Shown: piece after piece, positions 54,676 to 56,620 of the stretch
Position numbering within the stretch: position 1 is the stretch's first letter
How the letters are laid out: each line of letters starts with the position of its first letter
From: Staphylospora marina
GTDB taxonomy: Bacteria > Bacillota > Bacilli > Thermoactinomycetales > Thermoactinomycetaceae
Assembly: GCF_003856495.1 (NCBI RefSeq)
Contig: NZ_CP034118.1
Coordinates: 1,034,001-1,098,000, forward strand
DNA: 64,000 nucleotides
Direction of reading: 5' to 3'
Notes under the pieces: generated by a model
What the model was told of the DNA's origin: nothing
Database searches by the model: none
What the model saw: the letters and a program-made list of their open reading frames with translations, nothing else
Position numbers and translations under genes: made by a program

Positions 54676-54703
54676 TTGATTTTTCCGGTTCTTGTGATAG
54701 CAT
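54676..54703 (+). promoter_or_regulatory. Probable promoter of the pseudokinase gene
   Basis: TTGATT, 16 bases, TAGCAT with an extended TG at 54695-54696. It lies about 80 bases before the TTG start of the next gene. The remainder of the 54430-54784 gap is AT-richer than its neighbours and shows no gene I can support; a 62-codon frame across the terminator is rejected. Confidence 0.5.
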
Positions 54704-54784
54704 AGAGATGCCGGTACTTATGACTCCATAATTTGTCAATTCATCGGTATTCTTTCAATTTTCTACAAGGTTAGGGGAACGCTG

Positions 54785-56584
54785 TTGAAACACGAAACTC
54801 AAGGAAAAAGTCGCTTTTATGAGAGATTTCAGGTGGAAGATGTCATCAACTTCTTCTCCGGCCAGCTTCTTCAGGCGAAATCTCCGGACGGGGCACAAGT
54901 GTTTCTCCAAGCGATCAAGGTGCGTCGCCGGCCTCTTCCCAAAGGATTTCAGGATGCGTTGCGGAAGCTGCAACATCCGAACCTGGCGCCGATCCTTGAT
55001 GTCATGGAGGAAGAAGATCAAATCATCCTTGTACATCCCCCGTTCTCCGGTGACCCCCTGCCTTTGATTGTGAACAAGGAACGGACGATGGATCCCGACA
55101 ACGCCGTTCGCATTGTCCACAATTGCCTGAGAACGCTTCAGGATCTGGAACGCCTGCCGTTGCCGCTCAGTGCCACGCTCGACCCCAAAAACATTTTGCT
55201 CGTGGGTCACAAACCGCTTTTGCTCTTCTATTATGTCAAGGACTCCAAACAGTCCACTTTTGACGAAAAGTGGCGTGAGCTCTTGTTCTACCTGGTGACG
55301 GGGCAAGCTCCGATCGGCGGGCTGAAACAATGCGAGAAATTGTTGGATGAGAAAAAGATCCCTTCCCGGGTGGCCCGACTGGCTCTTCAATGCCTGGACC
55401 GGAAGTTCAGTCTGGGACAGATCACCCATTCCGTGGGCAGATACGTGGCCAGCCGATCCAGAGAGGAAGGAGGCGAATCCGGGCGTAAGGGACGTTCCCG
55501 CAAAACGCTTTACACCGCGATCGGTGTGGCGGCCGCCGCTTTGGTGCTGGTCACCTTGTCCGTTTCTTCCCAGATCGGCTTGGGGGAAGCCTACAACCAA
55601 TGGGCCGGAGAAAGGGAAGTCCGACTCAGGGACGGGGAAATCGTCGACCAATTTACATTCACCAAACACAAGGAATGGTTCACGCTTCCCTACACTTTCA
55701 AGGACGTGACCAACATCCGGGGCGATTTCACCTTGAAAACGCTGAACGGCTTCACCGGTTATGTGGAAACCAAGGACAGGCAGTCCGTGTTCGGGTTTTA
55801 CGTGAAAAAAGAAACCGGCATCGTTTCTTTGTTTTACTACATGAAAGGCAAGATGTACCCGATCGGGGAGTCCGGCGAGCAGTTCCGGATCAAGCCCGGG
55901 AAGAAATACACTTTTGAAGTGATCTACATTCCGGGTGAACCGGTGCGCATCTCCATCCAGGAGTACGGGGAAGGAGAGCGGTATGTGGCCGTCGGAACGA
56001 CGCACATGAACGGTGAACTGACCATGCGTTTCCGGGGAGAAGAAGGGGCCACTCTCTATTTCCCGCAAATGACCAGCACCGACAGGCAGGCTCTGGAACA
56101 GACGTTCCTGAACGGGCAGCCGTGGCGGATCGGATACGGACAGGGAATCATCCGTCCGGATGACGAGTACATCACCCGTCTCTCGGTGTATCCGAACACG
56201 CAAATCCGCATCAATGCCGCGGAATCCGACCGGTTCGCGTTCATCCCGCCGGAAAAGGGAAATCCTCTGCAGTTGAATCTGCAGGGCGTCGACAACAGCA
56301 TGTACCGGTTGGTTTGGCAGAAAAATGAGAAAAAGCTGGTCCTCTACCTGTTGGAGCAGAAACTGGTCGAGACTCCCGTCAATTGGGAGCCCAAAAAAGA
56401 CAAACCCATTCTGGTCACGTTCACTCCCGATCAGCTGGACAAGCTGAGCGTTACGGTCTCCCAGGATTCCAATCAAACGGAAATCAAGTACACCAATCCG
56501 AACGGACCCGTTGCCATCCGGGAAGTTTCGATGATTCACGAAAAGGGATTGGAACTGGTGGGGGTCAAGACGTCAGGGGAGTGA
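54785..56584 (+). CDS. Membrane-anchored pseudokinase with extracytoplasmic jelly-roll-like region
   Basis: A 599-residue protein with three parts. Residues 20-215 follow the protein-kinase outline: AIK at 43-45, HPNLAPILDVMEEEDQIILV at 64-83, and the catalytic-loop equivalent TLDPKNILLV at 131-140, where the catalytic Asp is replaced by Thr and the Lys by Asp; the DFG position reads LLFYY. It should not phosphorylate. RKGRSRK (234-240) precedes one TM helix (241-261), placing the C-terminus outside. Residues 275-599 are beta-rich with a jelly-roll look (GRIG-like FTGYVETKDRQSVFGFYV, MRFRGEEGATLYFPQM). TTG 54785 has GGGGAA seven bases upstream. Function unknown; a sensor or wall-associated signalling role is inference. 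Confidence 0.72.
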   Translation: MKHETQGKSRFYERFQVEDVINFFSGQLLQAKSPDGAQVFLQAIKVRRRPLPKGFQDALRKLQHPNLAPILDVMEEEDQIILVHPPFSGDPLPLIVNKERTMDPDNAVRIVHNCLRTLQDLERLPLPLSATLDPKNILLVGHKPLLLFYYVKDSKQSTFDEKWRELLFYLVTGQAPIGGLKQCEKLLDEKKIPSRVARLALQCLDRKFSLGQITHSVGRYVASRSREEGGESGRKGRSRKTLYTAIGVAAAALVLVTLSVSSQIGLGEAYNQWAGEREVRLRDGEIVDQFTFTKHKEWFTLPYTFKDVTNIRGDFTLKTLNGFTGYVETKDRQSVFGFYVKKETGIVSLFYYMKGKMYPIGESGEQFRIKPGKKYTFEVIYIPGEPVRISIQEYGEGERYVAVGTTHMNGELTMRFRGEEGATLYFPQMTSTDRQALEQTFLNGQPWRIGYGQGIIRPDDEYITRLSVYPNTQIRINAAESDRFAFIPPEKGNPLQLNLQGVDNSMYRLVWQKNEKKLVLYLLEQKLVETPVNWEPKKDKPILVTFTPDQLDKLSVTVSQDSNQTEIKYTNPNGPVAIREVSMIHEKGLELVGVKTSGE

Positions 56585-56593
56585 GAAACAAAA

Positions 56594-56620
56594 CGGCCGC
56601 GATACGCGGCCTGTTTTTTT
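56594..56620 (+). terminator. Terminator of the pseudokinase gene
   Basis: GGCCGCG and CGCGGCC flank ATA and are followed by TGTTTTTTT. Confidence 0.85.

Follow-up and report, generated by a model that had tools for sequence, protein, structure and literature searches.

A single-pass membrane pseudokinase with a predicted tandem jelly-roll ectodomain in Staphylospora marina and its relatives

Bacterial pseudokinases are still described as largely unexplored experimentally in PMC12599244, which together with PMC9600267 is the source of the background on known systems given here. Firmicutes are known to have a transmembrane pseudokinase in EssB/YukC (PMC12599244); it is reported to work as a secretion scaffold without binding ATP (PMC9600267; PMC12599244), and the ectodomain of YukC is helical (PMC9600267). 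The MviN/Rv3910 module is characterized by the loss of all three catalytic motifs, a deletion in the activation loop and a transmembrane region on the C-terminal side, and in M. tuberculosis it also includes a carbohydrate-binding domain (PMC12599244). In the same source, the MviN pseudokinase, with its motifs lost, is reported not to bind ATP, it dimerises much as active bacterial kinases do, and its tail recruits FhaA once phosphorylated by PknB (PMC12599244). SelO and SidJ are cited as precedents of a kinase fold with new transferase chemistry (PMC12599244).

The gene analysed here lies in a stretch of 64,000 nucleotides from Staphylospora marina (the window; contig NZ_CP034118.1, positions 1,034,001 to 1,098,000), where the open reading frame called by the original prediction is present and the observation as a whole was borne out. 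The features of the locus, by position in the window, are as follows.

54676..54703, + strand: conserved promoter-like element TTGATTTTT-N13-TAGCAT, of the general form TTG[AC]TTTTT-N13/14-TAG[CG]AT
54768..54779, + strand: ribosome-binding stretch AGGTTAGGGGAA upstream of the TTG start; 7 of 20 family genes have the form AGGTTAGGGGNAA
54785..56584, + strand: whole gene with a TTG start, 599 aa, predicted single-pass membrane pseudokinase with a tandem jelly-roll ectodomain
54812..55471, + strand: predicted cytosolic pseudokinase domain, residues 10-229 (model, VIA and hhalign)
55169..55192, + strand: SATLDPKN, residues 129-136, aligned at the HRDxKPxN place; Asp replaced by Thr131, Lys by Asp133, Asn136 kept
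55226..55234, + strand: FYY, residues 148-150, aligned at the place of the DFG region, without the Asp and followed by the deletion of most of the activation segment
55508..55564, + strand: predicted transmembrane helix, residues 242-260 (mean hydropathy 2.19 and a positive-inside flank)
55637..56077, + strand: predicted first jelly roll, residues 285-431 (VIA and single-domain Foldseek matches)
56117..56560, + strand: predicted second jelly roll, residues 445-592 (structure models and long Foldseek matches)
56595..56611, + strand: terminator-like hairpin followed by a T run (hairpin scan)

The inner part of the protein, residues 10-229, is predicted to adopt a bilobal kinase fold, for which VIA gave Z scores of 14-16 to kinases (up to 16.4, with an rmsd of 4.2 over 210 residues), the MviN/Rv3910 domain (3otv, 3oun, 3uqc) scoring 14.4-14.8 and thus being tied with active kinases. 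In the full-length model, the pLDDT of this domain ranges from 77 to 96 per block of ten residues, except for residues 151-160 (65) and 221-230 (72). Profile-profile comparison by hhalign with 38 kinase ORFs taken from the order and the phylum returned a probability of 98.1% over 163 columns (query residues 57-220), and the profile of the 27-member family found kinases among solved structures at E 5.8e-6, with the eukaryotic kinases Snf1 and DAPK at the top of the ranking, followed by StkP and PknB. For the 599-aa protein, the single kinase match in Pfam, PF00069 at E 0.0039 over residues 58-121, falls short of the cut-off, NCBIfam and PADLOC yielded weak kinase-type matches alone, of which the best PADLOC defence-kinase match had E 2.3e-4 over residues 58-119, and above cut-off neither Pfam nor NCBIfam has a match for the family. 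The protein-kinase outline that had been read in the N-terminal region was recovered as a fold in the model.

The catalytic Asp, the catalytic-loop Lys and the DFG Asp have been lost from this fold in every one of the 27 family members aligned. In the profile-profile alignment, S129-A130-T131-L132-D133-P134-K135-N136 is placed onto HRDxKPxN, and the replacement of the catalytic Asp by Thr131 and of the catalytic-loop Lys by Asp133, together with the loss of DFG, which had been proposed from the single sequence, is found both in this alignment and in that of the 27 family rows (window included). The column of the HRD Asp holds T in 22 rows and D in 0, that of the catalytic-loop Lys holds D in 26 rows and E in the remaining one, and that of the DFG Asp is empty in 27/27, while the catalytic Asn is kept in 25/27, including Asn136 of the window protein. 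All three of HRD Asp, catalytic-loop Lys and DFG Asp are present in each of the 38 reference kinase ORFs, which were chosen by kinase similarity. Most of the activation segment is missing as well, the distance from DFG to SPE being 29 residues in the PASTA kinase of the same genome. The occurrence of orthologues with an intact HRD/DFG set, named beforehand as evidence against the assignment, amounts to 0 of 27 aligned members, and the structure models, with a kinase fold in residues 10-229 and jelly rolls outside, gave no contrary result either. The alignments and the model hence support the assignment of the inner domain as a pseudokinase.

The only hydrophobic stretch, residues 242-260, is preceded by 7 K/R in 20 residues and followed by 2 in 20, in agreement with the single, positive-inside transmembrane helix that had been claimed; the helix spans residues 244-263 in the full-length model, at low confidence. 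A comparable stretch, located between residues 232 and 278 and with a mean hydropathy of 1.7 or more, is present in 25 of 27 family rows, and of the remaining two, one has a weak stretch (1.48) and the other, a copy with one jelly roll, has none. The full-length model reached a mean pLDDT of 84.1 and a pTM of 0.54, its confident parts being linked via a poor stretch around the membrane.

Predicted alone, the ectodomain is all-beta at a pLDDT of 92.9 and a pTM of 0.89, and it is divided into two jelly rolls (residues 285-431 and 445-592), by which the beta-rich, jelly-roll-like outer region of the original prediction is retained in its nature and corrected in number to two in tandem on the basis of the models, Foldseek and VIA. 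The first jelly roll gave VIA Z scores up to 15.1, with 148 residues superposed at an rmsd of 2.8, whereas the second, barely tested by VIA, is apparent from the models and from the long Foldseek matches. Galectin-9 and laminin LG pairs occupy the top Foldseek ranks, these pairs not being rigidly superposable (rmsd 14-23), and single-domain matches are better, namely galectin LEC-6 with a TMt of 0.70 and Bacillus subtilis CBM66 with a TMt of 0.52-0.57, the latter being the first bacterial rows as judged from titles. The outer domains thus have their fold in common with the jelly rolls of galectins, laminin G and CBM66, among which sugar binding is frequent; they differ from them in sequence, with 8-19% identity in the rows listed, and in having no Pfam domain over the cut-off. 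We infer that the jelly rolls bind sugar; the fold alone shows no function, and LG-type folds bind proteins too. Taken as a whole, the interpretation of a pseudokinase with a single transmembrane helix and a jelly-roll region outside was upheld by alignment, structure prediction and structure search, and its description as unusual in Firmicutes was not.

The latter description is overstated, since EssB/YukC is listed for this phylum in PMC12599244 and full-length members of the present family were found by profile search in 30 of 42 genomes of the order. The named hosts (22 loci) include, among others, Laceyella, Thermoactinomyces, Lihuaxuella, Paenactinomyces, Hazenella, Kroppenstedtia, Melghirimyces, Marininema, Paludifilum, Baia and Seinonella. 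A profile of the ectodomain alone led to the same 30 genomes, and all its 45 places fell within loci matched by the whole-family profile; within the 42 order genomes, the ectodomain was found solely joined to the pseudokinase of the family. The family is absent from the other 12 genomes, and it is therefore dispensable there. Outside the order, 63 of 397 genomes of the phylum matched at E 1e-5, with the matches confined to residues 56-144, and seven of these loci, upon examination, proved to be kinases that retain the catalytic residues. In the open-licence literature, which was the scope of the search as opposed to subscription papers, no report of a lectin-type membrane pseudokinase class was found among the papers listed.

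Several genomes carry two adjacent copies, some of which have one jelly roll or an internal stop; the internal stops observed in G029:C3:14166-15929 and G035:C8:122354-123667 by profile search suggest the decay of some tandem copies. A short relative of 271 residues in Paludifilum (L092:10004-10816) consists of the pseudokinase part alone. Of 41 ORFs, 38 were aligned (L044 lost two split ORFs from the set, and L064 a fragment at a contig end) and 21 entered alignment A1; alignment A2 comprised the window protein and 26 of 29 ORFs (without L092 and the two split ORFs of L084), and alignment A3 was built without the two copies having one jelly roll.

No other region of the protein is as well conserved as the kinase-like part. 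The identity of this part to that of the window protein is 30-72% (26 members), compared with 18-46% (26) for the first and 14-40% (24) for the second jelly roll, and dN was lower in the kinase part than in the ectodomain in all six pairs computed (0.12 vs 0.33; 0.08 vs 0.33; 0.05 vs 0.32; 0 vs 0.016; 0.006 vs 0.035; 0.19 vs 0.55). Synonymous change is saturated or almost so in four of the six pairs, and in the two usable ones the kinase part has dN/dS values of 0 and about 0.02 and the ectodomain values of about 0.06 and about 0.08, which indicates purifying selection on both parts, stronger on the kinase part. A decaying relic is ruled out, because the kinase-like part, as the most conserved region, is maintained.

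With respect to expression, the gene had been claimed to have its own promoter and terminator. The promoter-like element TTG[AC]TTTTT-N13/14-TAG[CG]AT precedes 14 of 20 family genes, that of the window among them (some of the hosts being close relatives of one another), with a total of 17 matches on both strands of the 952 kb of the 20 sequences; terminator-like hairpins in the region number 4 against a shuffle mean of 3.4 and are not in excess. A generic sigma-70 scan did not pick up the element at 54676-54703. The ribosome-binding stretch of the window departs from AGGTTAGGGGNAA at its last base, and close relatives share a conserved AGGTTAGGGG stretch and the TTG start. A version of the promoter-like pattern with fixed trailing bases gave 7 sites in 7 of the 42 order genomes, against 2 for the reversed-pattern control; 3 of the 7 lie at family genes by position and none in the present genome (G000), as the window sequence departs from the pattern at the trailing bases. 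No shared regulon emerged from this search of 42 genomes, and a search for structured RNA in the leader returned one match at chance level (E 0.93).

The five window neighbours assigned by Pfam, with their recurrence over 21 loci, are a lipoyl ligase (15), a short-chain dehydrogenase (12), a class-IV aminotransferase (18), a GDSL lipase (9) and a metallophosphoesterase (17), which are of housekeeping type and indicate no pathway. Repair genes of yprA/yprB type flank or separate the pseudokinase copies at 7 of 21 loci (L032, L033, L039, L040, L041, L043 and L044). At L032, Pfam assigned an MrfA Zn-binding domain to the helicase and RNase_H_2 to the partner gene, which is presumably YprB, and at L040 the pseudokinase ORF and the yprA/yprB-type ORF overlap by 4 bases. 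Little weight was given to a function deduced from these neighbours, since 14 of 21 loci are without them in the compared stretch.

The reading that we favour, with a probability of about 0.6, is that of a catalytically dead, receptor-like or scaffold member of the protein-kinase fold, with lectin-type jelly rolls outside and partner docking inside; it builds on the computed folds and topology, on the uniform disappearance of the catalytic residues, on the tighter constraint found for the pseudokinase and on the distribution over the order. The ligand of the two jelly rolls would be a glycan or glycopolymer from the envelope of the cell itself, or else some other ligand at the surface, and the single helix would span the membrane and join them to the pseudokinase, which would dock a cytosolic or membrane partner. 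The state outside would then set partner binding inside, with no phosphoryl transfer by the pseudokinase protein. Signalling across the membrane would follow from such an arrangement, and the partner would probably belong to envelope control. By analogy, the non-catalytic transmembrane pseudokinases EssB/YukC and MviN, as presented in PMC12599244 and PMC9600267, may serve as precedents. Against a catalytically dead protein, K45 may be a true beta3 Lys: the place is filled by K45 in the sequence alignment (Lys in 13/27 rows) or, alternatively, by Q42 (Gln in 25/27).

One kinase above the Pfam cut-off is encoded in the genome, and it carries a PASTA domain, so the protein might instead be an allosteric regulator of this kinase, with the pseudokinase pairing with the kinase domain and tuning it in response to the ligand of the jelly rolls. 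The dimerisation of the MviN pseudokinase in the manner of active bacterial kinases, as given in PMC12599244, points in the same direction. We consider such a regulator unlikely: a kinase match at E 1e-10 is found in 41 of the 42 order genomes, whether the family is present or absent (the miss being a 67% complete genome), so that co-occurrence carries no signal.

A second related pseudokinase family, referred to as family B, is encoded in the genome at G000:C1:349704-350411 and is present in 37 of the 42 order genomes, in one of them as a fragment. Its N-terminal domain matches the jelly-roll pseudokinase family at 99.7% over 211 columns and has a similar loop (LxDPRN or LxHPxN); it differs in lacking any match to the ectodomain profile and in a C-terminal part that, in the copies read, looks like coiled coil or low complexity by eye and from weak Pfam matches. 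In a tree of 50 rows, which included 14 of the 38 kinase ORFs, the jelly-roll pseudokinase family, family B and the kinases each fall on one side of a branch (97/93, 99/98 and 100/100, respectively), and the tree, being unrooted, does not show sister relations among the three. Strict co-occurrence of the two pseudokinase families is ruled out by the counts over 42 genomes: both occur in 27, the jelly-roll family alone in 3, family B alone in 10 (one fragment) and neither in 2. The genome also holds one YukC/EssB match over the cut-off, its only one (L103, G000:C1:529394-529888), and with it the 2.75-Mb genome carries three kinds of pseudokinase beside one kinase over the cut-off.

The order has a filamentous, spore-forming habit, and the gene of family B, divergent from a class-III aminotransferase gene, is itself followed by two spo0M genes (L055:9609-12575; G000:C1 about 349608-352574); family B has one or more spo0M-cluster genes nearby in 15 of the 19 loci compared, with Pfam run for L055. 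Family B may perhaps be the better lead for sporulation. This adjacency of a related family, and the presence of two tandem lectin-type domains, would suit a protein that is mainly a surface anchor or morphogenesis factor, in which the jelly rolls would grip the glycan of the envelope, the pseudokinase serving just to tie the protein to a cytosolic complex with no signal being passed. Such a role seems doubtful to us, as the spo0M link belongs to family B rather than to the jelly-roll family, and conservation is higher in the cytosolic part than at the surface, the opposite of what is expected of a plain adhesin.

The former active-site region is kept in an altered form, with Q42 in 25/27, H84 in 26/27, T131 in 22/27, D133 in 26/27, P134 in 27/27, N136 in 25/27 and F148 in 27/27 rows, and this conservation, the possible beta3 position of K45 in the window protein and the precedents of SelO and SidJ (PMC12599244) would fit a repurposed pocket that binds a nucleotide or another ligand or carries out new transferase chemistry. 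A pocket of this kind is improbable, however, because the glycine-rich loop is lost (N22 and S25 stand at two Gly positions, where the commonest letters of the family are without Gly), helix C is short in the model (residues 55-60) with F55 in place of its Glu, the DFG Asp is missing, and MviN and YukC, which have lost the same motifs, do not bind ATP as reported in PMC12599244 and PMC9600267.

Membership in a type VII secretion system as an EssB/YukC-like subunit is highly improbable in spite of the same order of parts (pseudokinase, transmembrane helix, extracellular domain), a profile match to EssB of 56% over 194 columns with 1 of 9 EssB matched at E 0.0016, and a match of family B to EssB at 96% over 66 columns, since PF10140 is absent from the matches to the protein up to E 5, the only YukC match of the genome lies elsewhere (G000:C1:529394), YukC occurs in 10 of 41 order genomes as against 30 of 42 for the jelly-roll pseudokinase family, and jelly rolls take the place of a helical ectodomain.

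The receptor-like family described here, which is without earlier characterisation, combines a dead domain under tighter constraint than the surface part with a layout that is directly testable. In a wider and speculative picture, to which we give rather little credence as a whole, an order of Firmicutes would have evolved, independently of the Actinobacteria, a stand-alone transmembrane lectin-pseudokinase receptor that senses a glycan of the envelope and, with no phosphorylation, governs wall growth or sporulation. It would parallel the MurJ-joined pseudokinase and carbohydrate-binding module of mycobacteria and act alongside a second, related pseudokinase linked to Spo0M. If the ligand is a wall glycan, the layout that serves cell-wall control in mycobacteria would have a counterpart in another phylum, in the form of a separate receptor.

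Among known systems, the PASTA kinases (PrkC/Stk1/PknB) share the cytosolic kinase fold, the single transmembrane helix and the extracellular domains; they differ in having intact catalytic residues and PASTA repeats, whereas the window protein has neither, is without PASTA among its Pfam matches up to E 5 and carries jelly rolls outside. EssB/YukC is alike in the order of pseudokinase, single transmembrane helix and extracellular domain, with weak profile similarity, and differs by its helices outside in contrast to the all-beta jelly rolls of the window protein. Membership in EssB/YukC was ruled out by profile (no PF10140 among the Pfam matches up to E 5), ectodomain and neighbours (no type VII secretion genes among the five window neighbours tested by Pfam), and a distant kinship is possible, against which the lack of an EssB structure among the 50 VIA matches listed is no evidence.

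The MviN module, also treated as ActPs3, is compared by fold and layout, and the fold match does not separate ActPs3 from active kinases. The carbohydrate-binding domain of MviN is located outside the membrane. Likeness extends to the deletion in the activation loop, the C-terminal transmembrane helix and the loss of HRD and DFG in 27/27 rows, while for the third motif the beta3 Lys place of the window protein is ambiguous (K45 or Q42). PF00498 (FHA) is absent from the genome at E 0.01, a result to be read with the facts that divergent FHA domains can escape the profile and that the Bacillus subtilis control was also without a match, and a phospho-dependent partner of the MviN type is thus not evident. 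MviN contains the MurJ flippase in the same protein and belongs to Actinobacteria, whereas the window protein starts at the pseudokinase, has one transmembrane helix and two jelly rolls and comes from another phylum; lacking the flippase, it is not MviN, and its layout resembles that of the mycobacterial MviN module minus the flippase.
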